This document shows, one piece after another, positions 1,508 to 37,979 of a stretch of DNA of 54,677 nt (positions within the stretch are counted from its first letter, which is position 1; every line of letters begins with the position of its first letter). This stretch comes from Oscillospiraceae bacterium (lineage in GTDB: Bacteria; Bacillota; Clostridia; UBA1381), in NCBI GenBank assembly GCA_022509025.1, contig JAFLUB010000016.1, positions 1-54,677 of the forward strand, in the 5' to 3' direction. Below the pieces are notes generated by a model. That model was not told the origin of the DNA. It did not search any database and worked only from the letters and a program-made list of their open reading frames with translations. A program made the position numbers and the translations under genes.

Positions 1508-1918
1508 ATGATAAGACCGATAGTAAGGGACACCATATTTTTATCGCAGAAATCAGAACCGGCTACAGAAAAGGATATACAAGTGGTGTTTGATTTGATA
1601 GATACTCTGCGTGCTCATGCTCATGAGTGCGTTGGAATGGCGGCAAATATGATAGGAGTGAAAAAGAGAATTATCGTATTCTGCATAGACGTAGCACAAA
1701 TTGCGATGGTAAATCCGGTTATCGTTAAAAAATCCAAACCATATCAGGCTGAAGAAGGTTGTCTGTCTCTGAACGGAGTGCGGAAAACTACACGCTATGA
1801 GGAGATTGAGGTTAGTTTTAAAGATATAAATTTCAAACAACAGCGTCAGAAATATTCGGGATGGACGGCGCAGATTATTCAGCATGAGATTGATCATTGC
1901 AATGGAATATTGATATAA
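1508..1918 (+). CDS. def: Peptide deformylase, copy 1
   Basis: The enzyme removes the formyl group from the initiator methionine of nascent proteins. The 136-residue protein belongs to the short clostridial type. All three metal-site motifs are visible: GMAANM (43-48, a variant of GxGxAAxQ with N for Q), EGCLS (83-87, metal Cys85) and HEIDH (126-130). The start ATG follows ACAGGAGGAACT. The 3' end overlaps the region just upstream of the DUF4268 gene. A second copy at 29604-30014 differs at only four residues (22, 38, 59, 105). A second deformylase in a mobile context could give tolerance to deformylase inhibitors, which is inference. Confidence 0.92.
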   Translation: MIRPIVRDTIFLSQKSEPATEKDIQVVFDLIDTLRAHAHECVGMAANMIGVKKRIIVFCIDVAQIAMVNPVIVKKSKPYQAEEGCLSLNGVRKTTRYEEIEVSFKDINFKQQRQKYSGWTAQIIQHEIDHCNGILI

Positions 1919-1947
1919 TTGAACATGGCAAAAGGAGTGTTAAGGCA

Positions 1948-2874
1948 ATGGTGAATTTAAGCAGACTTGAAGAAATAAAAGATTTACGAAGGGTGTGGCC
2001 GCATGAAGCGTTGGATTTTACGCCATGGCTTTCGCAGGATGATAATATTGCACTCCTCGCTGATGCGGTAGGGCTTGATATCACCGTAGATGAGACTGAA
2101 TCTTCAGTTGGAGATTTTAATGTAGATATCTTTGCGTCCGAAACGGGCACAGATCGTAAAATCATCATTGAAAATCAACTGGAGGACACAAACCACGACC
2201 ATCTTGGTAAACTGATAACGTATGCGGCCGGCAAGTCGGCAGATGTGATTATTTGGGTGGTAAAGCAAGATCGTGAGGAACATAAGGCTGCAATTGAATG
2301 GCTTAACAACCACACCGATGAAAAAATCGGGTTTTTCCTTTGTGAGATTAAACTGTATAAAATAGGAGATTCAGAGCCGGCGGTAAAGTTTGAGGTAATA
2401 GAGAAACCGAATGACTGGGCGAAAGAAGTGAAGAAGAGTGAGTCTGCCACCGTGACACAACAACAGAGATATGATTATTGGGTGGCATTCCAAGACTATG
2501 CATTCCAGAACTCGCTATTTTCTAAAAATTTCAATCGTAGAAAGCCGTCTATGGATCATTGGATGAACTTCAGTGTGGGTTTGTCTGCATGCCATATTAC
2601 CGTGTCACAGATTCAAAAACGTAACGAACTGGATGTGGAACTGTATATAAGCGAGGATAAGGATTTGTTTCAGTCCCTTTTCCGGAACAAGGACGCTATT
2701 GAATCCGAAGCTGGGTTGACTTTTGACTGGCGAGAACTGCCGGAGCGTAAAGCAAGTCGTATCGTTATCGAAAAGAGCGTGACCTTCGAGGATAAGAATC
2801 AATGGAACGTACAGTTTGACTGGCTGATTGATGTTATGATTAAGATGAAGAAGACATTCAAGAAATACCTATAA
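1948..2874 (+). CDS. DUF4268 family protein with nuclease-like N-terminus
   Basis: A 308-residue protein. Residues about 55-105 (VGDFNVDIFASE, IIIENQLEDT, DHLGKLITYAAG) resemble PD-(D/E)XK nucleases, with Asp in VDIF and Glu-x-Gln in place of the usual Glu-x-Lys. Residues 165-305 match the DUF4268 pattern (RYDYWVAFQDYAF through FEDKNQWNVQFDWLIDVMIK). I choose ATG 1948 because AAAGGAG precedes it; the upstream ATG at 1897 lies inside def. The family occurs near restriction and phage-defence genes, so a role in DNA or nucleic-acid restriction is plausible but unproven. At the paralogous locus (30015-30049) this gene is cleanly absent between def and the methyltransferase. Confidence 0.75.
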   Translation: MVNLSRLEEIKDLRRVWPHEALDFTPWLSQDDNIALLADAVGLDITVDETESSVGDFNVDIFASETGTDRKIIIENQLEDTNHDHLGKLITYAAGKSADVIIWVVKQDREEHKAAIEWLNNHTDEKIGFFLCEIKLYKIGDSEPAVKFEVIEKPNDWAKEVKKSESATVTQQQRYDYWVAFQDYAFQNSLFSKNFNRRKPSMDHWMNFSVGLSACHITVSQIQKRNELDVELYISEDKDLFQSLFRNKDAIESEAGLTFDWRELPERKASRIVIEKSVTFEDKNQWNVQFDWLIDVMIKMKKTFKKYL

Positions 2875-2937
2875 TAGTAAAAGTTGTGGCTACGATAAAG
2901 CAATGTTATTATTTAGGAGAGATTTAAGGAGGTAATT

Positions 2938-3735
2938 ATGCCGACAATCAAAGGCTTGGAGTGGACATTTGATACGGTGGCGTCTACTTATGAAAAGCTT
3001 CGCCCAACATATCCGGATGAACTTTACAAAATGATATTTGATTATATTGCTCTTGATGATTCTTGCCGTGCAGTAGAGGTGGGAATCGGCGGCGGTCAGG
3101 CAACATTGCCGATTTTAAAGATAGGATGTAATGTGACCGCAGTTGAATACGGCGAGGAATTTTCTAAACTGTGCAAGGAAAAGTTTAAAGAATATAAAAA
3201 TTTTTCTGCTATAACAAATAAATTTGAAGATACGAACTTTTCAGATGATATATATGATTTGGTATATTCCGCGTCAGCCTTCCACTGGGTTCCGGAGAGT
3301 ATTGGATATACAAAAGTGTTCTCGATGCTGAAAAGCGGTGGTGTGTTTGCACGATTTGCAAATCATCCATATCGGGATAAAGGCAATTTGCCGCTTTCTG
3401 AAGAAATGGATAGGATTTATGGCGAATACTATTATAAATTCTATAATAAAAAACAGGAATCGCCGACAGAGTATACCGAGGAACAAGCTATACAAAGAGC
3501 AAAAATTGCAGAAAAATACGGATTTTCGGATATCAAATATGCTTTGTTTTACCGAACGCGTACTTTTTCGGCAAATGAGTACAGCACATTGCTTGGGACA
3601 TACTCTGACCATATTGCAATTGAGGAGAGTATAAGAAAAGAATTTTTCTTGAAAATTGAGGATGCAATAAATAATCACGGAGGTTCAATTACCGTATATG
3701 ATACCATTGATTTACAACTTGCAAGAAAACCATAA
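2938..3735 (+). CDS. Class I SAM-dependent methyltransferase, copy 1
   Basis: The 265-residue protein has the Rossmann methyltransferase signature: motif I AVEVGIGGGQATLPIL (about 45-60), acidic motif II VTAVEYGEEF and motif IV YDLVYSASAFHWV (about 104-116), the last typical of the Methyltransf_11 group acting on small molecules. The substrate is unknown. The start follows TTAAGGAGGTAATT. A close paralogue (about 90 percent identical by eye) lies at 30050-30859, there directly behind def. It is followed by the cupin gene with 14 bases between. Confidence 0.85.
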   Translation: MPTIKGLEWTFDTVASTYEKLRPTYPDELYKMIFDYIALDDSCRAVEVGIGGGQATLPILKIGCNVTAVEYGEEFSKLCKEKFKEYKNFSAITNKFEDTNFSDDIYDLVYSASAFHWVPESIGYTKVFSMLKSGGVFARFANHPYRDKGNLPLSEEMDRIYGEYYYKFYNKKQESPTEYTEEQAIQRAKIAEKYGFSDIKYALFYRTRTFSANEYSTLLGTYSDHIAIEESIRKEFFLKIEDAINNHGGSITVYDTIDLQLARKP

Positions 3736-3749
3736 AGGAGGAAATGACT

Positions 3750-4115
3750 ATGGAGTTTATTAATTCAAAAGATATTATTAATTTGACCAACCCCGGTGTT
3801 GTCTCAAGACAGATATTAAATCCTGATAATTCGTCAAGTGAAAGAGTAACAATCACAGAGGTTCATTTAGACGTAGGGGCAAGTCAGCCGAGGCATATAC
3901 ATAAAACATCAGAACAAATCTGGTATGCAGTCAAAGGATGCGGAAAACTTCTCCTGGAAAACAACACAGAAAAAACGTTTCAAGCGGGAGATGTTGTAAG
4001 ATTTGCTGATGGCGATATACATGGCTTGTTAAATAATGGGGATACAGAGTTTGTTTATATTTCTGTGACTGCCCCGCCTATTAATTTCGGATATGCATAT
4101 AAGGACAAGAAATAA
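3750..4115 (+). CDS. Cupin domain protein
   Basis: This is a small single-domain cupin of 121 residues. Cupin motif 1 (HRHIHKTSEQIWYAVKGCGKLL region, residues about 48-70, metal-type His, His and Glu) and motif 2 (GDVVRFADGDIHGLLN, residues 84-99, His) are both present. Cupins of this kind bind a metal and small carboxylic or sugar ligands; the substrate here is unknown. I prefer ATG 3750 over ATG 3744 because AGGAGG is only two bases from the latter. It is likely co-transcribed with the methyltransferase upstream and the TfoX-like gene downstream. Confidence 0.8.
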   Translation: MEFINSKDIINLTNPGVVSRQILNPDNSSSERVTITEVHLDVGASQPRHIHKTSEQIWYAVKGCGKLLLENNTEKTFQAGDVVRFADGDIHGLLNNGDTEFVYISVTAPPINFGYAYKDKK

Positions 4116-4138
4116 TCGGAATTTGAGAGGTGAAGAAA

Positions 4139-4456
4139 ATGGCTTCAAGTCAAGACTATTTGCAATTTGTTTTAGAGCAATTATCAGAACTGAGTGACAT
4201 ATCCTATCGGGCAATGATGGGGGAATTTATACTATATTATCGCGGCAGGATAGTTGGCGGTATATATGATGACAGGTTACTTGTCAAGCCGATAAAGTCA
4301 GTTATTGCATATATGAAAAATCCATCATATGAATTGCCGTATGATGGTGCAAAAGAAATGCTTTTAGTAGATAATATTGATGATAAAGAATACTTATCAG
4401 GATTATTTAATGCTATGTATGATGATCTGCCCGAACCAAAAGTTAAAAAGAAATAA
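4139..4456 (+). CDS. TfoX/Sxy N-terminal domain protein
   Basis: The 105-residue product fits the TfoX N-terminal family: SELSDISYRAMMGEFILYYRGRIVGGIYDDRLLVKP near residues 15-50 and a tail YLSGLFNAMYDDLPEPKVKKK. In gammaproteobacteria TfoX controls competence; in Clostridia stand-alone N-terminal domains have no known function. The start at ATG 4139 follows GAGAGG; a GTG at 4130 in frame overlaps that site. It is part of the 2938-4902 gene run. Confidence 0.8.
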   Translation: MASSQDYLQFVLEQLSELSDISYRAMMGEFILYYRGRIVGGIYDDRLLVKPIKSVIAYMKNPSYELPYDGAKEMLLVDNIDDKEYLSGLFNAMYDDLPEPKVKKK

Positions 4457-4485
4457 GTTTTATTGCGGAGATGGGAGCAAATAAA

Positions 4486-4902
4486 ATGAATATCAGATAT
4501 ATGCAGGCAGATGATAAGGAATTTTGGTACAGTCTTGACAAGCATCTGCCGGAAACGGAATTTATGAATAAAGTCCGTGACAAAAGGGGATATGTTTTAC
4601 TGGAAAACGATATTCCGATAGGACTGTTAAGGTACAATCTTTTTTGGGACAACACTCCGTTTTGCACCATGTTGTTTGTAGATTGGAATCATCAGCGTAA
4701 AGGCTACGGTAAAAAGCTAATGGAGCAATGGGAAAATGACATGAAATCACAAGGCTATAAAATGGTTTTGACGTCCACGCAGGTAGATGAAAACGCTCAG
4801 CACTTTTACAGAAAATTAGGATATAAGGACTGCGGCGGATTTGTGATTGATCTTCCCGAAGATTCACAGCCGATGGAACTGTTTTTGATAAAATCAATCT
4901 GA
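4486..4902 (+). CDS. GNAT acetyltransferase, copy 1
   Basis: A 138-residue GCN5-related N-acetyltransferase. The acetyl-CoA loop motif is HQRKGYGKKLMEQW (about 69-82) and the C-terminal NAQHFYRKLGYKDCGGF strand-helix is typical. The substrate is unknown. Start ATG 4486 is preceded by GGGAG. The paralogue at 39184-39600 differs at eight residues. The bases before this copy (about 4456-4485) match the end of the DUF5714 gene that precedes copy 2, so this copy seems to have carried away the 3' end of that neighbour. Confidence 0.88.
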   Translation: MNIRYMQADDKEFWYSLDKHLPETEFMNKVRDKRGYVLLENDIPIGLLRYNLFWDNTPFCTMLFVDWNHQRKGYGKKLMEQWENDMKSQGYKMVLTSTQVDENAQHFYRKLGYKDCGGFVIDLPEDSQPMELFLIKSI

Positions 4903-7159: not shown

Positions 7160-7675
7160 ATGAAAACCTGCTGTTTTACAGGACATCGTCCCAAAAGTTT
7201 ACCGTGTGGTTATAATGAGGAGCATCCGGCTTGTTTGATGATAAAAAAGCAGTTACGAAGGCTGATAGTCGGTGTGATTGAGAAAAAGAATGTAACAAAA
7301 TTCATTTCTGGGATGGCACTGGGAACGGATATGTGGGCATTGGAAATAGTTCTTGATTTGAAAGATGAATATCCGAATATCACACTGGAAGCTGCCGTTC
7401 CATGCAGAAACCAAGCATCGAGTTGGAACGTAAAATATAAAGAACGATATAACAAATTACTATCGCTATGTGATGAAGTGACAGTATTACAGGAGGAATA
7501 TATATACGATTGTATGATGAAACGCAATAAGTATATGGTTCAAAAGGCAGACTACGTTATTGCTGTGTGGAATGGCACGCCAAGCGGAACGGATAAAACG
7601 ATACAGTATGCATTGGATATGTGTAAGCCTGTGTATTACGTGGACGTGAATGATTTCAGGATGAAGGCAATATGA
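7160..7675 (+). CDS. SLOG-family protein (DUF1273 / YpsA-like)
   Basis: The 171-residue protein begins with the SLOG signature CCFTGHRPKSLP and continues with a FISGMALGTDMWALEIVLDL nucleotide-binding-type loop (about residues 48-67) and YVIAVWNGTPSGTDKTIQYA. SLOG proteins are thought to bind nucleotide-derived ligands and some are sensors in conflict systems that work with SLATT membrane effectors and TIR domains. Exactly such genes follow here (7862 and 8290), though a separate promoter lies between, so a common system is only an inference. DUF1273 proteins are also common as lone genes on ICEs. Confidence 0.82.
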   Translation: MKTCCFTGHRPKSLPCGYNEEHPACLMIKKQLRRLIVGVIEKKNVTKFISGMALGTDMWALEIVLDLKDEYPNITLEAAVPCRNQASSWNVKYKERYNKLLSLCDEVTVLQEEYIYDCMMKRNKYMVQKADYVIAVWNGTPSGTDKTIQYALDMCKPVYYVDVNDFRMKAI

Positions 7676-7743: not shown

Positions 7744-7812
7744 TTGACATACAACTTTCTTAAAGATATAATAACGTCGTTAGCAGTCGTCAAAAAAGAG
7801 TGCTAACGACGT
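7744..7812 (+). promoter_or_regulatory. Consensus promoter with inverted repeat at the transcription start
   Basis: TTGACA (7744-7749), 17-nt spacer and TATAAT (7767-7772) match the sigma-A consensus exactly. A perfect 12-bp inverted repeat (ACGTCGTTAGCA at 774-785 of this kilobase and its complement at 801-812, 15-nt gap) begins two bases after the -10 box. It can act as operator or as RNA hairpin in the leader of the membrane protein/TIR genes. Confidence 0.75.
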
Positions 7813-7861
7813 ATTATTAGTATTTATAATATGTCACATATTTCTGGAGGTGGAAAAGATA

Positions 7862-8287
7862 ATGGGATTTGACGGTGATAGAATTGCGTATTTACAAATG
7901 ATAGAGAGTATTATTGACAGAATGTCTAATAAATCAGGAAATATTAAAGGCTTTGCGGTTACGATTGTTGCAGGAGTCACAGCCCTGTCATTTAAAGAAG
8001 CTAGCCCATATGTTTTAATATTATCCTTTCTTACAGTGTTAATATTTCTGTGGTTAGATTTGTATTATCTTGGAATGGAACGAAAATATAAATTTTTTTA
8101 TAAACAGGTATGTCAGGGCAGGGATGTTGACTTTAATCTATCATTGGACTTGAAAGAAAGTGAGTTAAGAGAGGCCAAAGCTACGAAGTGGCAGTGTTTA
8201 ACTTCGAAGTCGATATACTATTTTTACATACCATTAGGATTGCTCATGATAATCATACTTATTTTAAAATTTAAAGGAGTAATATAA
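7862..8287 (+). CDS. Three-TM membrane protein, SLATT-like, coupled to TIR gene
   Basis: A 141-residue protein. An N-terminal amphipathic helix (DRIAYLQMIESIIDRMSNKS, 6-25) precedes two hydrophobic segments (28-44, 48-68), a hydrophilic middle with EAKATKW, and a third segment (118-137). The layout resembles SLATT-type and similar membrane effectors that disrupt or sense the inner membrane in defence systems. I choose ATG 7862 because TCTGGAGG is 11 bases upstream; GTG 7850 overlaps that site. The stop is two bases before the start of the TIR gene, so translation is probably coupled. It lacks a Macro domain, unlike the membrane effector of type II Thoeris. Function is inferred only. Confidence 0.7.
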   Translation: MGFDGDRIAYLQMIESIIDRMSNKSGNIKGFAVTIVAGVTALSFKEASPYVLILSFLTVLIFLWLDLYYLGMERKYKFFYKQVCQGRDVDFNLSLDLKESELREAKATKWQCLTSKSIYYFYIPLGLLMIIILILKFKGVI

Positions 8288-8289
8288 CA

Positions 8290-8901
8290 ATGGCACATAA
8301 AACATTTATTTCATACAAGTGGAGCGAAGCTCAAACCCTTAGAGACAATATTATTGCAGCATTGGGCGAAGATGCAACATATTATAAAGGGGAAACTAGC
8401 GATTCGCCTGACTTAACCGATACGTCTACTGAGAACATCAAGAGAAATTTGAGAAATATGATGTACGATACATCTGTTACTATTGTAATAATATCTCCTA
8501 ATATGAAGGATAGCAAATGGATTGATTGGGAGATTGAATATTGCCTAAAAGATATCACTCGTAAAGATAGAACCTCCCATACCAATGGTGTAGTCGGCGT
8601 TATAATGAAAGTAAATGGTGGCTATGATTGGTTTAAGTATTCTCAGACCAATAGTGATGGTTGTTCCACTGCAAATTACCATACAGAAAAAGTATATGAC
8701 ATTATTAATAATAACAGGTTTAACCAAGAACCGAAGGTATATAGTTGTGATGTGTGCAAATGTGTTAATGCTTTGACGGGATCATATATAGCTTTTGTGG
8801 AGGAAGATGATTTTTTGAGTAGTCCGACAAAATACATAAATAATGCTTATGATAAAAGTGAAAATGATGCATCAGGATATAAGATAACAAAGACAAGGTA
8901 A
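8290..8901 (+). CDS. TIR-like protein (DUF1863, ThsB-like)
   Basis: The 203-residue protein starts KTFISYKWSEAQTLRDNI, the usual TIR first strand and helix. It has TSVTIVIISPNMKDSKWIDWEIEYCL at about 61-86; the W-x-x-W-E arrangement (W77, W80, E81) matches the likely NADase catalytic glutamate of DUF1863/ThsB proteins. The C-terminal third has a CDVCKC motif of unknown meaning. TIR proteins of this type make cyclic or histidine-linked ADP-ribose signals when a phage infects. The gene is two bases behind the membrane protein, so a TIR sensor plus membrane effector is the likely arrangement. An RBS AAAGGAG precedes ATG 8290. Confidence 0.8.
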   Translation: MAHKTFISYKWSEAQTLRDNIIAALGEDATYYKGETSDSPDLTDTSTENIKRNLRNMMYDTSVTIVIISPNMKDSKWIDWEIEYCLKDITRKDRTSHTNGVVGVIMKVNGGYDWFKYSQTNSDGCSTANYHTEKVYDIINNNRFNQEPKVYSCDVCKCVNALTGSYIAFVEEDDFLSSPTKYINNAYDKSENDASGYKITKTR

Positions 8902-9209: not shown

Positions 9210-10427
9210 ATGGAAAAGACAATTTGCGAATTGTTCGCAGGAGTAGGCGGTTTCAGACTTGGGTTTGAACGGCTTGATTCAGGTTGGGAAACAACGTGGT
9301 TCTCGCAATGGGAGCCGGGAGCGAAAACACAATGGGCACATGAATGTTATGTGCAGCATTATGGTGATAGCGCCGATAACAATGGTGAGTATCACACGGG
9401 TGAAGATATTAGCGATGTAAATAAAGAGGATATCCCCAATCATACACTTCTGGTGGGAGGATTTCCCTGCCAGGATTACAGTGTGGCGCATACATTAACA
9501 TCTTCTCGGGGTATCGAAGGAAAAAAAGGTGTTCTTTGGTGGCAAATAAGAGATACAATTATGGCTAAACAGCCGCCATTTTGTTTGTTAGAGAATGTTG
9601 ACAGGCTATTGAAGTCGCCGGCAAAGCAGCGCGGACGAGATTTCGCTATTATGCTTTCATGCTTTGCAGAACAAGGATACAGCGTTGAATGGCGCGTTGT
9701 AAATGCGGCGCAATACGGTGCTGCACAAAGACGCCGGAGGACATTTATCTTTGCCTATAGAAATGATACTGAATATGGTAAGAAAATATCAGGTATATCA
9801 GCTCAAAGGATAATATCTGATGAGGGATTTATGGCGAAGGCATTTCCTATAAATAGAATAGATAAAATCAAAGAGACGACAGTAGGAAATGATTTGGTTG
9901 GAATTAGTGAAAACTTTACCTTTATCTTTGAAAATGCAGGATATATGAAAAATGGGAATGTATTTACTGTTAAAGTTGCAGAATCGGAGGAGTCTCCGAT
10001 ATTGCTCAAAGAGATACTACAAAGCAATGTTGATGAGAAGCATTATATAGATGGGGAGAAACTGGCAAAGTGGACATATTTAAAGGGTGCAAAAAAGATT
10101 CCGCGCACATCATCGGATGGACATGAATATGTTTTTTCTGAGGGACCGATTGCCTTTCCAGACCCATGGGACAGACCTGGTCGTACTATGCTGACAAGTG
10201 AGTCGACGCTTAATAGGTCAACGCATGTTGTATCAGATCCGGGTACCGGGCGCTTACGGCTGCTAACACCCGTGGAGGCAGAACGATTACAAGGATTTGA
10301 TGATGGATGGACTGATACCGGAATGCCGGACCGAATGAGATATTTTTGTATGGGTAATGCGCTGGTTGTTCCGATGATTACGCGTATGGGAAATGTACTT
10401 GATACGATTATAGCAGAAGAAAGATAA
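9210..10427 (+). CDS. DNA (cytosine-5-)-methyltransferase, first
   Basis: A 405-residue C5 methyltransferase. Motif I FAGVGGF (9-15), catalytic motif IV GGFPCQDYS (Cys87), motif VI ENVDR (128-132), motif VIII QRRRR (173-177) and the C-terminal motifs IX and X (ERLQGFDDGW, MGNALVVP) are all present. It makes 5-methylcytosine at a short site; its neighbour, a Sau3AI-like nuclease, suggests GATC, which I infer and do not see. It starts the operon-like run 9210-14353. A hairpin at 10453-10481 separates it from the nuclease gene. It is clearly related to the methyltransferase at 13121. Confidence 0.93.
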   Translation: MEKTICELFAGVGGFRLGFERLDSGWETTWFSQWEPGAKTQWAHECYVQHYGDSADNNGEYHTGEDISDVNKEDIPNHTLLVGGFPCQDYSVAHTLTSSRGIEGKKGVLWWQIRDTIMAKQPPFCLLENVDRLLKSPAKQRGRDFAIMLSCFAEQGYSVEWRVVNAAQYGAAQRRRRTFIFAYRNDTEYGKKISGISAQRIISDEGFMAKAFPINRIDKIKETTVGNDLVGISENFTFIFENAGYMKNGNVFTVKVAESEESPILLKEILQSNVDEKHYIDGEKLAKWTYLKGAKKIPRTSSDGHEYVFSEGPIAFPDPWDRPGRTMLTSESTLNRSTHVVSDPGTGRLRLLTPVEAERLQGFDDGWTDTGMPDRMRYFCMGNALVVPMITRMGNVLDTIIAEER

Positions 10428-10452
10428 GTTTACATCATCAAGATATTAACCC

Positions 10453-10481
10453 AAGGACTTGTGTGTTTTATACAAGTCCTT
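10453..10481 (+). terminator. Terminator/attenuator between methyltransferase and nuclease genes
   Basis: A perfect 10-bp stem (AAGGACTTGT/ACAAGTCCTT, 9-nt loop) followed by TTTT. It probably lowers nuclease expression relative to methylase. Confidence 0.65.
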
Positions 10482-10517
10482 TTGGTCATATTACGAGGAT
10501 ATAAGGAGGCGGAGAAA

Positions 10518-11861
10518 GTGCAAGGGACAGAGTATAGAACTAAGGAATCAATTTTAAAACGCGCTCAGGAAGTAATAGGCATTCCTCTTGCGGACATTGA
10601 TGCTACCGGAAGATTATCTTCCGGGAAAGGCGCTATAGGAACTGTAATTGAGGAAAGCTGGTATGGTTATTCGCCTAATTCTGAATCAGAACCGGATTTC
10701 CCTGAGGCGGGAGTAGAATTAAAAGTTACTCCGTACGTCAGAGGCAGAAATGGAATACGCGCAAAGGAACGGCTTGTATGTAATATAATTAATTATATGG
10801 ATGAGTATGATAAAACATTTGAAACCAGTTCTTTTTGGCATAAGTGTAATACGATGTTACTCATGTCATATGAGCATCTTCAAGGTATACCAAAAGGGGA
10901 GTTCAAAATAGATGCGGCTATACTTTTCAGTTTTCCGGAAGAGGATTTAATAATCATAGAGCATGACTGGGAAACCATAATGAAAAAAGTACGGAGTGGC
11001 AACGCGCATTTGATTTCTGAGGGCGATACACTGTATCTTGCCGCGTGTACGAAGGGAGCAAGCGCTGCGAGTGTAAGGCAGCAACCATTTTCGGATATTC
11101 CCGCAAAGCAACGCGCATATTCGTTGAAAGCATCGTATATGACGCGGATATTGAATGCATACATATTTGGTGAAACCCAGAGTGAAAGTATCATTAAGGA
11201 CTGGCGTGTTCTGAAAACCAGTACATTTGAGGAATATTTGATTCAAAAGGTTTCTCCGTATTTTGGAATGACTCAAGCCGAATTAAAGGAACATTTTGGA
11301 GTAGATACAACTGCCAAAAATTTGAATGAAATATTGTTGGCAAAGATGTTGGAGATAAAAGGGAAAATCGCTTATACGGAGGAGTTTCAAAAAGCAGGAA
11401 TAATTCCTAAAACTATACGTGTTCAGAAGAATGGTAAAATTAAAGAAAATATGTCTTTTCCAACATTTGATTTTATTCAATTAAGTCAGGAAACGTGGGA
11501 AGACTCTACTTTGTACAATTATTTGGCCCCAACAAAATTTCTTTTTGTTATTTTTTAGGAAAATGAGAACGGAGAACTTATTTTTGAACGCGTAAAGCTG
11601 TGGAATATCCCGATTGACGACCTAGAAGAGGTACACAATGTGTGGGAACGCACGGTCAAAACAATTCGAGAGGGTGTAGTTCTCCATCAAACAAGCTCCG
11701 GTGTGAGCAATAATCTGCCGAAACAATCAGAGAGCCGGGTGGCTCATGTACGTCCTCATGGCAGAAACGGAGATGACAAGCTGCCATTGCCGGACGGAAG
11801 AATGATGACAAAACAGTGTTTTTGGCTTAACAACAGTTATATCGCAGAGCAGATAAGATAA
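10518..11861 (+). pseudogene. Sau3AI/MutH-type restriction endonuclease interrupted by in-frame TAG
   Basis: The product cuts DNA at a short site, GATC in Sau3AI itself. The MutH-type active site is clear: Asp60, Glu67 and Lys69 in EPDFPEAGVELKV, the same D-x6-E-x-K spacing as MutH. From GTG 10518 (RBS AAGGAGG at 10503-10509) the frame runs to TAG at 11556-11558, codon 347. It then continues open in the same frame for 100 codons, from ENENGELIFERVKLWNIP to the TAA at 11861. The continuation looks like the normal C-terminal half-domain of this family. So either the gene carries a nonsense mutation giving 346 residues, or the codon is suppressed. Sau3AI is about 490 residues, and the C-terminal domain helps binding. 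Confidence 0.82.
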
Positions 11862-11875
11862 GGAGGAGTTTTATA

Positions 11876-13021
11876 ATGGCTGGTTATGTGTTTGCAATTG
11901 GCGGAAATTCCAATCCGTTAGATGTTATAAGAGATTGTGCTGAAAAAGGTGTATACTCAACTTACATAAATAGTTTATCACCTACACCATTTGAAGGCAC
12001 TCTCGCAGATTATATGTCTATGAAACCAGGAGACAATATTTACTTTTTCTGTAAGAGAAAATACTATGGCGTGGGAGAATTGGTATCCATAGGATTGGAT
12101 TGTAAATATTGTAATTATCACGATTCTAGCGCTATAGTAAATTTTGATTACAATGATATTCGAGATGATTTATTGTTGGACTATGGAGAGGAAAGTCCGA
12201 AATATCGTTGGATATGTACATTTAAAGGTTCTCCTTACTTTTTTGAGGATGGTATAGATACTGATGAAATTTTGACGTATAAGCCAAATACATTTAAAAT
12301 GCTTCGAGCATTTTGGAAGGTTTCGTTTATTAAACTGGGAGATGAGGAAAATGATTCCCTAAAGGAGATATTCCTTTTGAGACGACAAAGGGAGATTCAG
12401 ACGCAAACTCACATATTTAATGAAAGCGATGATACACATGATTTGATTGCTATGCATGATTTAGGAGAGTATATTATATCTCCAAAAGCGATGCTTCAAT
12501 ATTGTACTGTTGAAAATAAAGTAAGACATGAAATGGCTTTAGAAGCAGCCGTGGTGTATGATTTATGTCATGATAATATTGTACAATTGGGACATTGGGA
12601 TTACGTGTCACATCAGGTTATTGCATCTCCATTTAAGCCAATAGATTATATGGACAGGATTGATGTGTTTGCAACTAGATATCTACCTAATACAAAGCTA
12701 CCGTGTAAATACCTTGTAGCTGAGTTAAAGAAGGATATGGCTGATAATGATACGATAGACCAAGTATTAAAATATGTGGACTGGGTTTGCAAAGAATATG
12801 CGTATGGTGACTATGAGGCTATAGAGGCTTGCATAGTAGCTGCTGAGTATTCAAATGATATTACCGAATACTATTATGATGTCGTGCAAAGATTCTATAC
12901 TCTGGGTAGTCATCCTATTCGGAATAAACAATGGAATTCATTGAAACTTTTGAAATATGCATATGTAGACGGAGAGATATGCTACACTGATGAGACTCCG
13001 ATGAATAGAAATAATATATAA
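11876..13021 (+). CDS. PUA/EVE-like plus NucS-like PD-(D/E)XK nuclease protein
   Basis: A 381-residue protein I do not know as a named family. Residues 1-75 (VFAIGGNSNP, PGDNIYFFCKRKYYGVGELVS) resemble an EVE/PUA-type fold, which in other proteins recognises modified bases. Residues 215-330 resemble the NucS/EndoMS nuclease: Asp263 in RIDVFAT, Glu283-x-Lys285 in YLVAELKKD, then DTIDQVLKYVDWVC. This would fit a modification-dependent or mismatch-type DNA nuclease. It lies 14 bases after the restriction gene (RBS AAGGAGGAG) and 99 bases before the second methyltransferase, so it may be the nuclease partner of that methylase. All of this is inference from motifs. Confidence 0.65.
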   Translation: MAGYVFAIGGNSNPLDVIRDCAEKGVYSTYINSLSPTPFEGTLADYMSMKPGDNIYFFCKRKYYGVGELVSIGLDCKYCNYHDSSAIVNFDYNDIRDDLLLDYGEESPKYRWICTFKGSPYFFEDGIDTDEILTYKPNTFKMLRAFWKVSFIKLGDEENDSLKEIFLLRRQREIQTQTHIFNESDDTHDLIAMHDLGEYIISPKAMLQYCTVENKVRHEMALEAAVVYDLCHDNIVQLGHWDYVSHQVIASPFKPIDYMDRIDVFATRYLPNTKLPCKYLVAELKKDMADNDTIDQVLKYVDWVCKEYAYGDYEAIEACIVAAEYSNDITEYYYDVVQRFYTLGSHPIRNKQWNSLKLLKYAYVDGEICYTDETPMNRNNI

Positions 13022-13120
13022 AATATTCAACTAAATCGGCATATGGACTATAATGAAATAAATCTAACAAGAAATTGATATTAAATGTATGTAAGTGGGC
13101 AATAGTGGTAGGAGTCGAAT

Positions 13121-14353
13121 ATGGATAATATCCGAGTTGTTGAATTATTTGCAGGAGTAGGCGGATTTCGTTTAGGGTTAGAGGCTGCATCCCCAAAATA
13201 TGAAATTATATGGGCAAATCAATGGGAGCCGTTTAAACGAGAACAATATGCATTTGACTGCTATGTTTCGCATTTTGGGGGGAATAAAAACCATGTATGT
13301 GAAGATATAGCAAAGGTGAAGGATAATATCCCAGACCATGATTTACTGGTGGGCGGATTCCCGTGTCAGGATTACTCAATTATGAAGAAGAATTCTGAGG
13401 GTATAAAGGGTAAAAAAGGTGCTTTGTGGTGGCAGATAGACGATGTTGTAGAGAGAAAGCGACCTAGATATATCTTACTGGAGAATGTAGATAGAATTGT
13501 TAGGTCGCCTGCAGGGCAGTCAGGACGTGATTTTTCCATAATATTACGGTGCTTATATAATAAAGGGTATGCTGTTGAATGGAGAGTTATCAATGCCGCA
13601 GATTATGGGCAGGCACAACGCAGGCGGCGTACCTTTATATTAGCGTATCATAATGAAACAGGAATGTTCCGTGAATTGGCTGATGGCGCTTGTATTCAGG
13701 GATTAAAATATCTGCATCAGTATATTATGAAAAACGGAGTGCTTGCAAAAGTATTTCCTGTACACTCCCATAATAAAGATTTTACAGATTGCTGGATAGA
13801 TGAAATGAGATATACTAATATATCTGAAATTTCAGATACACATAAGGCAATATTCTATAATTCTGGTGTTATGATGAATGGGCGCATATATTCTGTAGAT
13901 TTAGAACCACAACGAGAAAGGCCAATTCCACTGAGAAATATTCTGGAAAGTGCACCAGTGGATGAACATTATTTTTTACAAGAAAAAGATATTCCGAGGT
14001 GGACTTATGCAAAGGGAGCAAAAAGAGAAATGCGAAAACGAAGAGACGGTAGTACATATTGCTTTTCGGAGGGGAGCGTTGCATTTCCGGATTCTTTGGA
14101 CAAGCCATCGCGTACAATATTGACATCAGAATCAAAAATCGGACGCACATCGCATGTTGTAACAGATGTTGCAACCGGACGATTGCGAACTCTAACGCCA
14201 ATGGAATGTGAAAGACTTAATGGTTTTCCTGATGGGTGGACAGATACAGGAATGCCTGAAAGAATGCGTTATTTTACAATGGGCAATGCGTTGGTGGTCC
14301 CGTTGATTGAGAGAATAGGTGGGATATTAGCGCATTGTGATGATTTTAAATAA
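13121..14353 (+). CDS. DNA (cytosine-5-)-methyltransferase, second
   Basis: A 410-residue enzyme with motif I FAGVGGFRLGLE (10-21), catalytic GGFPCQDYS (Cys82), ENVDR (121-125), QRRRRTF, and C-terminal ERLNGFPDGW and MGNALVVPL. It is a paralogue of the first methyltransferase (same order and many identical blocks), with a different target recognition region (about 190-290). It may recognise the same or a related site. RBS TAGGAG precedes ATG 13121. It is the last gene of the restriction locus. The 290 bases after it hold the regulatory sequences of the Gabija-like genes. Confidence 0.92.
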   Translation: MDNIRVVELFAGVGGFRLGLEAASPKYEIIWANQWEPFKREQYAFDCYVSHFGGNKNHVCEDIAKVKDNIPDHDLLVGGFPCQDYSIMKKNSEGIKGKKGALWWQIDDVVERKRPRYILLENVDRIVRSPAGQSGRDFSIILRCLYNKGYAVEWRVINAADYGQAQRRRRTFILAYHNETGMFRELADGACIQGLKYLHQYIMKNGVLAKVFPVHSHNKDFTDCWIDEMRYTNISEISDTHKAIFYNSGVMMNGRIYSVDLEPQRERPIPLRNILESAPVDEHYFLQEKDIPRWTYAKGAKREMRKRRDGSTYCFSEGSVAFPDSLDKPSRTILTSESKIGRTSHVVTDVATGRLRTLTPMECERLNGFPDGWTDTGMPERMRYFTMGNALVVPLIERIGGILAHCDDFK

Positions 14354-14449
14354 GTATAGGAGAGGTGTTCGTACAGAGTGTTGACGTGACAAATAAGTAT
14401 AGTGGTGGAATAAATTAACTAGAATTTGAATTATTTTTTGTTGGGATTA

Positions 14450-14503
14450 TAGGAATCATTATATAAAAAATTCTTACATAGCGTATGCGACTAATAATAT
14501 ACA
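14450..14503. repeat. Imperfect 55-bp repeat, copy 1 (left of the Gabija-like genes)
   Basis: The stretch ending GCGTATGCGACTAATAATATAC is matched, with a few gaps and about three quarters identity by eye, at 17796-17850. The two copies lie either side of the GajA/GajB genes. Confidence 0.5.
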
Positions 14504-14553
14504 GAAACGGGATAACTTTTAATATTGCTTATTCTTAAGCATGCGCGTTTTTA

Positions 14554-14578
14554 AGTTCTATTTTTGTATAATAGAACT
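14554..14578 (+). promoter_or_regulatory. Inverted repeat over a -10 box before gajA
   Basis: AGTTCTATT, 7-nt gap, AATAGAACT: a perfect 9-bp inverted repeat that covers a TATAAT at 14567-14572. No convincing -35 box. It is a candidate operator for the Gabija-like operon. Confidence 0.5.
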
Positions 14579-14665
14579 AACTAATGGAATTGTAATGAGA
14601 TTGAATAGTTTTATACAATATAAAATTTATATAATTGCTCAAAAATGAGATGGGAGGTATTAAAT

Positions 14666-16414
14666 TTGAAGATATCCAGACTTATTATCAAAAATTATAG
14701 AAATTTAAAAGATATTGATATTCACTTAAATGACACGGTTGCACTAATTGGGGAAAATAACAGCGGAAAAAGTAATCTTCTGCGTGCCGTTACCCTCCCT
14801 TTTTTGGCAGATGAGTTTGGTTCGTTTGGGAAAAACTTATCTTGGGTTGATATAAATGATGCTGCAAAGGAAGATTATTATAAATACATAATAGACAATC
14901 AAAAATCAATAGTAGACGGAACGTTGCCTTGTGACAAATTTATAAAAAATATGCCGATAGTTATGGTGGAAGTTCATTTGACTCCGGAAGAAAAAGAAGG
15001 CTTCTTTGTAAAGGACTTGAGTTTCGATATTGAAGATAATCATATGGTATATGGGTTGCGTTATGAATACAAACCAGTTAAAATTGAAGAAATCTATTGC
15101 ACTGTGAAAAATGTACTTGAGGCAGGAAAATTAGATATGGAATCTATTGGTTCGGTAAAAATGAATCTTCTGCCGACAGAATACTATTCATACTCTATTT
15201 CTGTGCCTGAAAAAGGTTCTGTGTCTTATGACATACTAAAATTATATAAATATACGTCGCTTGAGGCTGAAAGGGATGAATTTTCGAGGACGAGAGAAAG
15301 GTTGGGTTCCAAGTCACTTGTCAAGGTGCTGCAAAAAGGATTGACAGGCAATGATAAGTTAAAGGTAGAAAAAGAGTATACACACTTTTTTGAAGAACTC
15401 AAAAAGATAAGCAAGATTGACAGTGTCATTAACTGGCAGGATGATTCTGATATGGAAGATGCAAAAGAGTTCTTCTCCCACATAAGTATACTTCCTAATA
15501 TGCCGTCAATGCAAACGATATTAAATAGTATAAGATTGGGATATTCTGATGCGGAGTTATCATTGCAGGGGTTGGGATACAGAAACCTTATACTTCTTTT
15601 TGTATTGATGAATTCATTATTGGAAACAAAAAATGATGTTGCTTTAAATGTCCTCACAATAGAGGAACCGGAAGCTCATTTGTGTATAAATAACATACGG
15701 CTTATGGCAAGTTTTTTAAAGGTGTTTACATCTAAAAATTCATCAATGCAATTATTCTATTCCACACATAGCACAGAGTTTATTAATAAAATGGATTTGA
15801 AAAATGTCGTTGTAATGCATAATGGACAGGCCTTTTCATTTATGGATGAACTTAGCGACGAAAATAGAGATTATCTTACCAAAAATCCCAATCTTGATTT
15901 ATTTAAATTGTTTTTCTCTAAAAGATGTATTCTGTTTGAGGGGATTTCAGAAGAAATGCTTATTCGTTCATATATTGATTCGAAACAAGAGTTGAGCGAT
16001 ATAGAGATGATTTCCTTTCATAAAGGCTTTACTGAAATAATAAAAATATGGAAAAAGGTAAACGTTGGAACCGGTAATAAGTTGGGCATTATAAGAGATT
16101 ACGATAATCAGGATAAATCAAAAGAAACTCATGAGGCTTTGGATGATGGAGTTAGCATTTGTGTAAGGACCACTTCGGAATATACGCTTGAACCGGAAAT
16201 TGTGAATATGGATAATAATTATAATGTTCTTCTGGAAAGATAGGGGGAGACACTGGGATGGAAAGACATGGATGCCTGCAAAATGGCGAATGCATGGAGA
16301 GAAGCTAAAGCATCAGATATGTTGACAATTTGCAAAGATATTGCAAATGGGAATCTGCCAGAACTGCATATGCCTAAACACATACAAGAAGTACTTGATT
16401 TTTTGAAAAGTTAA
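14666..16414 (+). pseudogene. gajA: Gabija-like GajA (OLD-family ATPase-TOPRIM nuclease) interrupted by in-frame TAG
   Basis: GajA couples an ABC-type ATPase to a TOPRIM endonuclease that nicks DNA during phage attack. I see Walker A GENNSGKSN (29-37), a Walker B-like TIEEPEAH, and TOPRIM motifs CILFEGISEE and IIRDYDNQ. From TTG 14666 (GGGAGG 8 bases upstream) the frame stops at TAG 16241-16243, codon 526, but continues in the same frame for 56 codons to TAA 16412-16414. That gives 582 positions, the size of known GajA (578 residues in Bacillus cereus, from memory). The lost tail includes the REAKASDM segment, whose Lys sits where the conserved TOPRIM lysine of GajA lies. The truncated product is probably inactive unless the stop is suppressed. 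Confidence 0.78.
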
Positions 16415-16436
16415 AATGTGTTTGGGGGATAGAAAT

Positions 16437-17783
16437 ATGAAAATCATTATAGCGGGAGCCGGAGCTGGTAAGACAACAACTATGGCGGATACAATAATAA
16501 AGCTACGTGCAGAAACAGAATCCTCAAAAAATATCTATTGTATTACTTTCACTAATAATGCAGTAATGTGTATAAATGAAAAGTTGAAGAAATGTTATGG
16601 AGAAATTCCGAGTAATGTTATAGTAAGCACAATACATTCGTTCTTATATCGTGAATTTATAAGACCATATTACTATTTGTTATATGGGAAGCAATATGAG
16701 AGAATATCGACTGCAGAATTGCCACAAGAGCCTGCATATAAAAATGCAGCGATAAAGCGATTAGAAGGCAGGAATGTTTTGCATCAGACGGTTATTCCGG
16801 AGAGAGCAAAATGGATTGCGGTGAGAAAATCTGATGACAGAAAACATATAAAAGAAAAAAGAACTATAATTATGTCCGCATTCGAAAAGTATTGTGGTGG
16901 AATCTGTATAGATGAGGCACAGGATATAGATTCGGATATGCAGTTAATTATAGAAACTCTGAATGAAATTGGCATTTCGCTAATATTAATGGGGGACCCA
17001 AAACAAGATTTAAGGGGACACAAGTGCCTAAGATTACTTGCGGAGAAATATGCAGGCAGTATAGAATATTTAGATGTTTGCCATAGATGTCCCCAGAAAC
17101 ATTTAAAAATATCAAATACGATTGTCGACGATAAAGAAAAACAATATTCTAAAAAAACGGGTGGCACTATAACTGTTTGTTTTGAAAAAGATGTGTCATG
17201 TGAAAAACTGTTACAACAAGAGGAGTTTGATTTGTCATATATTTCAAAGAAATACGGCAAATATAGTACGCATAGTCAAGAGCGGGGCGGTAATATAAAA
17301 CACGCTCTTGCAGAAGAGATAGAAGCTGTTATGCAATCCAATCATTCTGATAAAAACGAGTTAGTGATTAGCCAGTATTCATATTATTTTGCAGAAAAAT
17401 TATTAAAAAATTACAGAAAATTGAATGATAAAAAGAAGGCTATGAATGCGACATTTAAGAATTATTCGCTTAACGGTAAAGCTTACGGTATAATAATAAA
17501 TCTCTTGACGGACACGTCCAATACAACCATAAATGATACTGTAATTGTAAGTTCAATAGATAGCATAAAAGGTCAAGAGGGGGAAAACTGCTTGTTTATT
17601 TTAACAAAGGATATGGCATCATATTTATTTAAAGATAAAACAGAAGATACCGCCACAAAGAATCGACTATATGTTGCATTGACTAGGTCATTAAATAAGT
17701 TGACGATTTTTATTACTGAAGAAGTTGAAACAAAATACGGACGAGCTAATATTTTTGAGTTTTTTAAGAAATATTTAGATTGA
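16437..17783 (+). CDS. gajB: Gabija-like GajB (UvrD/PcrA-type helicase)
   Basis: The 448-residue SF1 helicase-like protein has Walker A AGAGAGKTT (6-14), motif Ic STIHSFLYREF (64-74), Walker B DEAQD (159-163), motif III LMGDPKQDLRG, motif IV HRCPQKH region and motif VI YVALTRSLNKL near the C-terminus. GajB senses DNA ends or nucleotides and activates GajA. ATG 16437 with GGGGGAT upstream is preferred to an ATG at 16416. It is 22 bases behind gajA, so the two are co-transcribed. This gene is intact while gajA has a premature stop. Confidence 0.8.
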   Translation: MKIIIAGAGAGKTTTMADTIIKLRAETESSKNIYCITFTNNAVMCINEKLKKCYGEIPSNVIVSTIHSFLYREFIRPYYYLLYGKQYERISTAELPQEPAYKNAAIKRLEGRNVLHQTVIPERAKWIAVRKSDDRKHIKEKRTIIMSAFEKYCGGICIDEAQDIDSDMQLIIETLNEIGISLILMGDPKQDLRGHKCLRLLAEKYAGSIEYLDVCHRCPQKHLKISNTIVDDKEKQYSKKTGGTITVCFEKDVSCEKLLQQEEFDLSYISKKYGKYSTHSQERGGNIKHALAEEIEAVMQSNHSDKNELVISQYSYYFAEKLLKNYRKLNDKKKAMNATFKNYSLNGKAYGIIINLLTDTSNTTINDTVIVSSIDSIKGQEGENCLFILTKDMASYLFKDKTEDTATKNRLYVALTRSLNKLTIFITEEVETKYGRANIFEFFKKYLD

Positions 17784-17867: not shown

Positions 17868-19262
17868 ATGCTGTCAATGAGAAAAATAGATTTAATCCGC
17901 AAGTACAAGTTCGATTTGGATATGCCGGTGCGAGTGATAAGCTACAAAGTGGACGTATCGCCGACAAGTGTATACAAGTACATAAAAATGGATGACTTTT
18001 CGGAAATGCTGAAGCAGCCGCGGAAGAAAAGACCGAAGAAGATGGATATATACGAACCGATTATAAAAGAGTGGTTGCTTGAGGATAAGACTCGACATTA
18101 CAAGCAGCGGCATACAGCAAAACGAGTGTTTGATTGGCTGAATGAGATGTATGAAGACTTTGATATCAGCTATGCAACCGTGGCAACAACGTTCCGAAGG
18201 ATAAAATCGGAAGTATATTACGTTTGCAAGGAATACGCACCTCTGAGACATCTGCCGGGTGAGGCACAGGTTGATTTAGGAAACTGCGATTTTGTTGAAA
18301 ACGGCATTAAATATAAAGGATGTTACGTTGTGATGTCTTTCCCATACAGCAATATCGCTTTCTGTCAGATATTAAAGGCTAAAAATGCTCAATGTATTGT
18401 GCAAGGCATGAAAAATATATTCGAGTTCATCGGCGGTGTTCCGCATGAGATTACATTTGATAATGAAAGCAGTATCGTGAGGTGTCTGGGCGAGAAGATA
18501 ACTAAGCGCGTAGAAAACGAGCTATTTCTGCGTTTTAAAAATCACTATGATTTTAGGTGTGAGTATTGCAATAGCCACTCTCCAAACCAGAAAGGTCATG
18601 TTGAGGGAAAGATTGGATATTTGCGGCGGAATTTATTCGTGCCACAGCCGATAATGCAAAATCTTGATGAATACAATAAAGAACTGCTACATCGCTGTAT
18701 GGATTTACATAACAGAAAACACCACCGAACCAAGAAAAGTATAATAGAAATGTTTGATTGTGACAGACAGGCTTTATTAAAATTACCCAAAAAGGATTTT
18801 GAAGTGACAACATGCTTTGAACGCAAAGTCGACAGGGAAGGACGCGTGCGTTTTAACGGACAACGCATATATTACCTTGAACCGAGGTACGCAAAGAAAA
18901 AGGTACAAGTCAGATTAACATACAATATGGTTACGTTCTATGATAAAAAGTTGAACGTCATTGCTGAGTTCGACAGGTTGTATGGTGAGAAGAATTACAC
19001 GGCAATTCATTGGGAGCAGTGGCTGCCTACGTTATCAAGACGACCGAACAGTCTGTTTCATTCATCGTTTTCAGATATGTTTACGGAGAGGTTAAGACAA
19101 TTCCTTTTAGGGGGAACCGCTAAGATACGAGGAGTGTATATGAAAGCATTGTGCGAGTTAATAAAGGGAGCAACTCTTGACAAGGCTTTGACTATTGCAG
19201 ACGAAGCCGCCGGACTAAGATTCGAGGACATTGACAGCATCTTACAGCTTGCTGCGGTATAG
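17868..19262 (+). CDS. istA: IS21-family transposase IstA
   Basis: The 464-residue protein has an N-terminal HTH (DMPVRVISYKVDVSPTSVYK) and an rve-type DDE catalytic core: Asp136 in GEAQVDLGNCDF, Asp198 in EITFDNESS, Glu246 in QKGHVEGKIGYLRRN. All three catalytic residues are present. IS21 elements need the ATPase IstB encoded right after; here no IstB follows, only a terminator and end repeats. The element may be IstB-less, or have lost it. The gene ends in TAG, used as a true stop. RBS AGGAGGTG precedes ATG 17868. The left end of the element is not recognisable. Confidence 0.88.
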   Translation: MLSMRKIDLIRKYKFDLDMPVRVISYKVDVSPTSVYKYIKMDDFSEMLKQPRKKRPKKMDIYEPIIKEWLLEDKTRHYKQRHTAKRVFDWLNEMYEDFDISYATVATTFRRIKSEVYYVCKEYAPLRHLPGEAQVDLGNCDFVENGIKYKGCYVVMSFPYSNIAFCQILKAKNAQCIVQGMKNIFEFIGGVPHEITFDNESSIVRCLGEKITKRVENELFLRFKNHYDFRCEYCNSHSPNQKGHVEGKIGYLRRNLFVPQPIMQNLDEYNKELLHRCMDLHNRKHHRTKKSIIEMFDCDRQALLKLPKKDFEVTTCFERKVDREGRVRFNGQRIYYLEPRYAKKKVQVRLTYNMVTFYDKKLNVIAEFDRLYGEKNYTAIHWEQWLPTLSRRPNSLFHSSFSDMFTERLRQFLLGGTAKIRGVYMKALCELIKGATLDKALTIADEAAGLRFEDIDSILQLAAV

Positions 19263-29411: not shown

Positions 29412-29535
29412 ATGTCTTATCTCCACAAATTCCGCTTTGTCATTAGTATAATTATACCACGCATAGCGCAGAAAGGCAATCCACGATTGCATAATAAAAT
29501 TGATACACAGTCAAAAAGGTTTTCAGATTTTTGCG

Positions 29536-29564
29536 TTGCGATATATTGTAGAATATGGTATACT
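29536..29564 (+). promoter_or_regulatory. Promoter of the second def-methyltransferase unit
   Basis: TTGCGA, 17-nt spacer, TATACT (29559-29564), 40 bases before ATG 29604. No such unit precedes copy 1, which shares the DUF1653 promoter. Confidence 0.6.
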
Positions 29565-29603
29565 TCTCATATAAATATATTATGCAGCATGGGAGATGGA
29601 GCT

Positions 29604-30014
29604 ATGATAAGACCAATAGTAAGGGACACCATATTTTTATCGCAGAAATCGGAACCTGCCACAGAAGGGGATATACAAGTGGTGTTTGATTTGATAGATA
29701 CTCTGCGCGCTCATACTCATGAGTGCGTTGGAATGGCGGCAAATATGATAGGAGTGAAAAAGAGAATTATTGTATTCAGCATAGATGTGGCACAAATTGC
29801 GATGGTAAATCCGGTTATCGTTAAAAAATCCAAACCATATCAGGCAGAAGAAGGTTGTCTGTCTCTGAACGGAGTGCGGAAAACCACACGCTATGAGGAG
29901 ATTGAGGTTAGTTTTCAAGATATAAATTTCAAGCAACAGCGTCAGAAATATTCTGGCTGGACGGCTCAGATTATTCAGCACGAGATTGATCACTGCAATG
30001 GAATATTGATATAA
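29604..30014 (+). CDS. def: Peptide deformylase, copy 2
   Basis: A second 136-residue clostridial-type deformylase with GMAANM (43-48), EGCLS (83-87) and HEIDH (126-130). It differs from copy 1 at residues 22 (G), 38 (T), 59 (S) and 105 (Q) only. The upstream ATGs up to 29412 lie in the divergent methyltransferase gene, so ATG 29604 with GGGAGATGG is the start. It is followed at 35 bases by the methyltransferase, the order seen at 1508-3735 without the DUF4268 gene. Confidence 0.92.
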   Translation: MIRPIVRDTIFLSQKSEPATEGDIQVVFDLIDTLRAHTHECVGMAANMIGVKKRIIVFSIDVAQIAMVNPVIVKKSKPYQAEEGCLSLNGVRKTTRYEEIEVSFQDINFKQQRQKYSGWTAQIIQHEIDHCNGILI

Positions 30015-30049
30015 TTGAACATGGCAAAAGGAGGGTTAAGGAGGTAATT

Positions 30050-30859: not shown

Positions 30860-30875
30860 AGAAAGTGATGCGCCT

Positions 30876-31046: not shown

Positions 31047-31053
31047 AATAATT

Positions 31054-31073
31054 GCATTATTATATAATAATGC
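31054..31073 (+). promoter_or_regulatory. 20-bp perfect palindrome (operator of the TA operon)
   Basis: GCATTATTATATAATAATGC is an exact palindrome and contains a TATAAT -10 box (31063-31068). It ends 17 bases before the antitoxin start, as expected for an antitoxin-bound operator. Confidence 0.7.
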
Positions 31074-31090
31074 TCAAAGGAGTGGTAGAT

Positions 31091-31658: not shown

Positions 31659-31667
31659 AATGTCAAG

Positions 31668-31911: not shown

Positions 31912-31934
31912 AGCAGTTATCCGGACTGATCAAT

Positions 31935-37978: not shown

Positions 37979-37979
37979 T

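Follow-up and report, generated by a model that had tools for sequence, protein, structure and literature searches.

A single lineage of ThsB-type TIR proteins is found with ThsA or with the small membrane protein M50A, a proposed effector

A single ThsB lineage is found with two effectors, ThsA and the small membrane protein M50A. The M50A pair lies on a 54,677-nucleotide contig of an Oscillospiraceae bacterium (JAFLUB010000016.1; the whole stretch is referred to as the window), where two adjacent genes encode its members:

7862..8287, + strand: M50A-type small membrane protein, the proposed effector (PADLOC, PHROG 19896, AF2 model and family alignments)
8290..8901, + strand: ThsB-type TIR protein of 203 aa with Glu81, the proposed sensor and signal synthase (PADLOC, Pfam and structure match)

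As the preliminary description of this DNA had it, the M50A stop codon and the TIR start are separated by two bases (CA), Glu81 sits in a W-x-x-W-E motif (here WIDWE), and the TIR protein is ThsB-like, on which Pfam, PADLOC and PDB sequence and structure matches agree. The PADLOC ThsB model PDLC00428 covers residues 1-202 (E 4.8e-89, 296 bits), while the PDC-M50B model covers residues 1-86 only (27 bits, E 9.6e-7), and Pfam ThsB_TIR is matched above its cut-off (E 1.6e-11). The top solved structure for the AF2 model of the protein (pLDDT 85.3) is 9vyl, BdThsB1 with NAD (E 3.3e-13, TM 0.81), followed by EcThsB and the ThsB of a ThsB-Tad3 complex; BdThsB1 is also the sole PDB sequence match under E 0.3 (2.8e-18). 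The window TIR is thus a type I Thoeris ThsB. The ThsB proteins of B. cereus and B. dafuensis are described as detecting infection and producing a cADPR isomer, upon which the NADase of ThsA becomes active (PMC11204291). In an alignment of 31 rows, the window TIR among them, E81 is invariant, and a search of phage records for TIR relatives gave no match. The C-terminal part of the protein also contains a cysteine-rich stretch, CDVCKC (window 8746-8763), a possible metal site; cysteines stand there in locus L005 too.

Plasmids of Phocaeicola vulgatus and P. dorei encode the closest TIR relative found, with 81.3% identity across all 203 residues (42 plasmid records contained a TIR relative, and six were examined, with H50, a Vibrio plasmid, left out). 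In the one Phocaeicola plasmid examined, a SIR2-family ThsA gene precedes this TIR gene, and two bases separate them, just as two bases lie between the genes of the window pair. Nine loci with this kind of TIR were collected outside the M50A set (L005, L068, L155, L158-L163), comprising the Phocaeicola locus and eight further ones (L005, L068, L155, L159-L163); ThsA is present in 9/9 and M50A in 0/9. The ThsA profile was derived from six of these loci, the other three match it at E < 1e-169, and two of these ThsAs, when run through PADLOC, were called ThsA (E 5.8e-192 and 5.6e-200). In the host's class, a TIR matching PDLC00428 (E 1e-20) occurs in five of 391 genomes, within an M50A locus in four of them (the host genome G000, G349, G150 and, in two copies, G211) and beside ThsA in the fifth (G147); another TIR gene lies between the PDLC00428 TIR and M50A in G349 and for one of the G211 copies. 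A sample of the phylum yielded four of 398 genomes with such a TIR, the host included, with M50A next to it in G564 and G828 and ThsA in G488; since the loci came from different searches, the proportions of ThsA and M50A are no census.

In a TIR tree of 22 rows, the window TIR belongs to a set of ten, supported at 100/100, that comprises eight ThsA-linked and two M50A-linked proteins. Its direct pairing with the Phocaeicola TIR is weakly supported (86/39). Over the whole tree the M50A label requires five changes, with at least three changes forced by well supported branches; when the mixed locus L094 is omitted, the changes between the two labels drop to four, and shuffled labels gave five or fewer changes in 23 of 500 trials. 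ThsA had no match in G000, G349 and G150, with a query that finds the protein of G147 at 50% identity and that of G488, its own source, while G211 gave a remote SIR2 match only (33%). Because the G000 sequence is 87.6% complete, a ThsA may be missing from it. We also considered a TM-Macro ThsA elsewhere in G000 and rejected it: the sole Macro match there is an ORF of 259 aa with no evident TM segment by eye. The ORF after it looks like a sirtuin by eye; the two overlap and lie on contig C63 of the host genome (L149:1207-2797).

The ORF of the membrane protein extends over 7850-8287 if read from GTG (145 aa) and gives 141 aa from the ATG at 7862, which is the likelier start because GGAGG precedes it. 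Four PDC-M50A models of PADLOC are matched by the protein, the best of them at E 2e-27 over residues 10-139 of 145. It also matches the phage protein family PHROG 19896 (E 2.8e-23), and a scan of viral contigs found no relatives. No Pfam or NCBIfam family is matched above its cut-off, DUF2270 (E 0.0037) lying below it, and no Pfam match to a Macro domain was obtained, in keeping with the earlier view that the membrane partner lacks this domain. A housekeeping membrane family was dismissed for M50A, since its Pfam matches all stay below cut-off. The three transmembrane segments ascribed to it initially hold in part: it is a membrane protein with two strong hydropathy segments (about 45-72 and 115-141), whereas the third hydrophobic segment is weaker and sits within the long first helix of the AF2 model (70 sequences; helices 3-46, 49-84 and 116-137; pLDDT 86.7). 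On this model, three TM segments are a reasonable reading, and a cytosolic stretch is predicted to precede the last helix. Compared with PDB and BFVD (solved and viral) structures, the model found no match at E < 0.001. In the alignment of 70 family members, R20, F62, L65, D66 and E73 are invariant, and two motifs are nearly so, N-S-F-x-x-K-G-W at 24-31 and F-W-x-L-D-x(3)-L-x-Q-E-x(3)-R-x-L-Y at 62-80; the window protein deviates at several conserved sites (Q15 to E, N24 to K, F26 to G, W31 to F and W63 to L).

It could be argued that M50A is an unrecognised SLATT domain and the pair a case of the predicted TIR-SLATT systems, the more so as Firmicute phage TIR genes beside a 2TM SLATT were described by Iyer et al. 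2022 (PMC9503650) and M50A matches a phage family. Such an assignment would be compatible with the explanation that we favour, the mechanism being much alike, yet we find it doubtful: SLATT families are absent from the Pfam matches (E 0.01, Pfam profiles only) of 26 and of 70 M50A relatives, and among the 17 plasmid features under an M50A match, 16 are annotated as hypothetical, one as TIR and none as SLATT. A SLATT_1 search across 94 genomes returned two matches, both below cut-off, too few to assemble a SLATT set for alignment. We likewise set aside a kinship with 8xMP (PF24838), the octameric membrane protein family, because the Pfam hints are weak (one of 26 and two of 70 M50A relatives, E 0.0039 and 0.0074, without reaching the cut-off) and hhalign comparisons with two 8xMP proteins were non-significant (E 0.083 and 0.13). 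An 8xMP-domain protein encoded at L151:1453-2361 (- strand) has an N-terminal part that looks TIR-like by eye and is perhaps a one-protein version of the theme of TIR plus membrane protein.

M50A genes are closely linked to TIR genes. Within the best 80 of at least 551 M50A relatives confirmed in GTDB genomes, a TIR-type gene lies no more than 700 bp away in 69 (65 by profile, four by eye), in a sample biased to relatives of TIR-linked M50A, since nine of the ten loci from which the query profile was made had a TIR neighbour. Judging by record titles, these 80 relatives belong to Bacillota, Pseudomonadota, Bacteroidota, Planctomycetota, Chloroflexi, Patescibacteria, an archaeon and others. Our own TIR profiles located a TIR within 700 bp at 55 of the 80 loci, always on the same strand as M50A (55/55); Pfam (E 0.001) assigned ThsB_TIR 43 times, TIR_2 ten times, and CAP12-type TIR, TIR and nucleoside deoxyribosyltransferase once each across those 55, the figures being totals per family and not locus-by-locus confirmation. 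Among the remaining 25 loci, a Pfam TIR-type neighbour is present in ten (L069, L070, L105, L120, L075, L102, L121, L143, L146 and L147; below the Pfam cut-off in L121, and on the opposite strand in L146 and L147), and four were recognised by eye (L071, L073 and L074 resemble L070; L072 resembles L075). A confirmed TIR neighbour is absent in 11 (L084, L096, L107, L109, L116, L117, L118, L138, L141, L145 and L148), of which L084, L138 and L145 have their neighbours outside the scan, the others had one or two neighbours scanned, and L148 has a TIR-like one by eye. At L096, a protein matching DUF4231 (L096:3172-3981) is encoded directly upstream of M50A.

For comparison, 21 related genomes totalling about 44 Mb contain ten TIR_2 matches as background, including the window's own. 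In three surveys, each with the host genome, the M50A models matched 4/150, 11/391 and 10/398 genomes. At the genome loci, TIR lies within 1 kb of M50A in 14 of 21, a tally that omits L004, L030 and L031 (partial matches to 56-81 profile positions, with an unrelated ORF or none). No TIR was found at the other seven (L052, L053, L056-L059 and L061); L061 is a distant match, and the remaining six are alike by eye and may constitute one branch, with L053 and L056 close to contig ends. DNA-methylase or ATPase-type genes were seen by eye near L052, L053 and L058. On plasmids, 14 of the 15 examined records carry a TIR gene within 700 bp of M50A, the exception being L017; the TIR of L020 is known by annotation and lies on the opposite strand, and the M50A copy of L015 is interrupted by an insertion element (17 records matched; H7 and H9 were left out as near copies of H6 and H8). 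Both phage records examined, out of three (H19 left out), have an adjacent gene that the depositors annotated as ThsB. The survey thus agrees with the linkage expected in the preliminary description, and neither outcome named beforehand as speaking against it, a housekeeping family for the membrane protein or a pair both rare and unlinked in other genomes, was observed; M50A itself is uncommon in the host's class (11 of 391 genomes).

That the two genes adjoin by chance, or form a toxin-antitoxin-like pair unconnected with phage defence, is hardly credible to us. A mobile setting would suit this explanation, given an IS21-type transposase gene recognised by eye at 17868-19262 and M50A relatives on plasmids and phages; against it stand the TIR linkage in 69 of 80 relatives from many phyla, the identity of the TIR as ThsB, and the defence neighbourhood of the pair. 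Downstream, a defence island at 9210-17783 combines a Sau3AI-type restriction-modification system with Gabija, and one further gene lies just upstream:

7160-7675, same strand as the pair: YpsA-type SLOG gene
9210-10427 and 13121-14353: C5 methylase genes of the defence island
10461-11558: Sau3AI-type endonuclease gene, matching the family model (475 positions) over 1-355 only
14645-16243 and 16416-17783: GajA and GajB homologues of the defence island

The YpsA-type SLOG gene was tried as a constant third component and rejected: a phmmer search of the 80 GTDB loci and of further M50A loci gave no homologue, and the promoter of the pair lies in between. Elsewhere in the window, very similar ORFs (deformylase-, methyltransferase- and acetyltransferase-like, by eye) occur twice, at 1508-4902 and 29412-39600, pointing to a duplicated gene cluster.

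The regulatory elements upstream of the pair are as follows:

7744..7772, + strand: putative sigma-70 promoter, exact TTGACA-17-TATAAT (12 of 12 consensus bases, by consensus match)
7774..7812, no strand assigned: inverted repeat with perfect 12-bp arms, 15 nt when extended, spanning the expected transcription start

Both the exact promoter and the perfect repeat at the expected start, as first described, are present in the sequence. The putative promoter is the sole exact match in the window (spacers of 16-18, both strands scanned). The repeat arms, ACGTCGTTAGCA (7774-7785) and TGCTAACGACGT (7801-7812), are perfect over 12 bp, and when extended to 15 nt they are 93% complementary with 9 nt between them; no second copy of the half-site occurs in the window with up to two mismatches allowed. 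The repeat is a candidate operator or leader hairpin, and the leader RNA (7779-7865) has a predicted fold of -24.5 kcal/mol (z -5.26; none of 200 shuffles was as good). A comparable fold was absent from about 100 nt 5' of M50A in seven other loci (z -0.87 to 1.23), where the real start sites may differ. Hence, the element is treated as local regulation, and a conserved leader hairpin as regulator was rejected.

Several M50A loci carry more than one TIR gene, three in L048, three in L051 and four in L094. By profile, four of the 80 GTDB loci are of this kind (L085, L094, L097 and L104), L090 and L122 having been removed since each contains one TIR gene in two frames. Seven partner TIRs run through PADLOC (L070 apart) matched several ThsB models (PDLC00425, 426, 430, 431 and 433). 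Thoeris itself, according to PMC11204291, combines one ThsA with either one ThsB gene or several. Along a single strand, L094:3379-8027 (Clostridiales) reads TIR, M50A, TIR, ThsA, TIR, TIR. Among the 80 GTDB loci no other has ThsA in the locus DNA; L094 is a possible two-effector Thoeris. Taken together, the shared lineage, the multi-TIR loci, L094 and the conserved Glu lead us to favour sensor TIRs with M50A as their common output.

The roles might instead be reversed, with the TIR as an NAD+-depleting effector and M50A as a membrane sensor or anchor that releases it upon disturbance of the envelope. We retain this rival because M50A is paired in L070 and L143 with CAP12/Pycsar-type TIRs, that of L070 being named an effector by PADLOC, and the absence of a known ligand-binding domain from M50A would suit it as well. 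We nevertheless judge it unlikely, since close relatives of the window TIR adjoin ThsA, in systems where the TIR is described as making the signal (PMC11204291), several different TIRs per M50A fit many sensors with one effector, and L094 carries both M50A and ThsA. Direct contact, in which an activated TIR would bind the cytosolic face of M50A and open it with no diffusible signal, is in our estimation very improbable. The tight coupling of the genes could be read in its favour, as the gap does not exceed 60 bp in 54 of 55 profile-found GTDB loci. Against it, E fills the catalytic Glu column in 55 of 55 partner TIRs, TIRs of several PADLOC and Pfam families occur with M50A, and the TIR genes of L146 and L147 lie on the opposite strand.

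Given these comparisons, we consider with moderate confidence that the pair represents a Thoeris-type system that retains the ThsB sensor but has M50A in place of ThsA, and that the signal leads to membrane damage. Phage infection would trigger the TIR protein, which would use its catalytic Glu81 to make an ADP-ribose-type signal from NAD+; in line with reports on type I relatives, this would most likely be a cyclic ADP-ribose isomer. In response, M50A would oligomerise in the inner membrane or open there, the cell would depolarise or leak, and phage multiplication would stop. That such a signal is made, that M50A recognises it and that the membrane is damaged is inferred by analogy with type I and type II Thoeris. 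Several observations stand against this explanation: M50A has no recognisable ligand-binding domain, and the two ThsA variants are described as binding their signals through SLOG or Macro (PMC11204291); CAP12/Pycsar-type TIRs, filed by PADLOC as effectors, occur at some M50A loci (L070); and a confirmed TIR neighbour is lacking at some M50A loci (7/21 genome, 11/80 GTDB), though some of these are near contig ends. Also counted against it are the lack of a structural match to the M50A model, the deviations of the window M50A at conserved sites, the weak tree pairing with the Phocaeicola TIR together with the shuffled-label result, and the incompleteness of G000. Tentatively, M50A could be a further class of Thoeris effector, a minimal membrane channel that lacks SLOG and Macro and is itself gated by a cyclic ADP-ribose isomer. 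In that case gating would involve the conserved residues of the cytosolic face (R20, K29 and the D66, E73 region), ThsB sensors would be exchangeable between an NAD-depleting and a membrane-breaking output, and some loci, such as L094, would drive both from one signal.

The suggestion of a new Thoeris-like or SLATT-like subtype survives in part: the TIR is a Thoeris ThsB, but PADLOC-DB 2023 already lists PDC-M50A, and a SLATT match was not obtained. Since PADLOC lists PDC-M50 and Iyer et al. 2022 predict TIR-SLATT pairs, the concept of a small membrane effector for a TIR has already been published. The term PDC-M50 is absent from the open-licence PMC literature searched, and no title there concerns M50 or a ThsB lineage shared by ThsA and a small membrane protein. 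Hence, the type of pair is already catalogued (PDC-M50) or predicted (TIR-SLATT), and the shared ThsB lineage is the part that we did not find in print. It suggests that immune systems may swap their killing parts while the alarm stays. If our explanation is true, TIR signals gain another, much simpler membrane output, two unrelated effectors can respond to one and the same signal, and many unassigned small membrane proteins beside TIR genes are immune effectors. Moreover, phage signal sponges should then block both ThsA and M50A outputs; Tad1 and Tad2 are described as sequestering gcADPR (PMC12657218).

Among known systems, PADLOC candidate PDC-M50 (PDC-M50A with PDC-M50B) shares the M50A match and a TIR partner with the window pair, and differs in that the window TIR fits a ThsB model far above PDC-M50B. 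The TIR-SLATT pairs likewise place a small membrane protein beside a TIR, and SLATT is predicted there to be a membrane effector regulated by an ADPr derivative and controlling permeability (PMC9503650), yet SLATT has two TM segments, whereas M50A probably has three TM helices and lacks a Pfam SLATT match. The reported ThsA variants are given as two, SIR2-SLOG and TM-macro (PMC11204291). Type I Thoeris (ThsB with SIR2-SLOG ThsA, e.g., that of BdThsB1) has in common with the window the same TIR subfamily over its full length, the catalytic Glu and multi-TIR loci, but its partner is ThsA, whereas the window encodes a three-helix membrane protein, with no ThsA alongside or found in G000. Further Thoeris types III and IV exist, and type III also appears as an NCBIfam model name. 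Type II (ThsB with TM-Macro ThsA), for which membrane perturbation has been proposed (PMC11204291, PMC12948488), resembles our proposal for M50A in having a membrane effector driven by a TIR signal; it differs in that the window partner is a protein of 141 aa without Macro, and the window TIR lineage occurs with SIR2-family ThsA.
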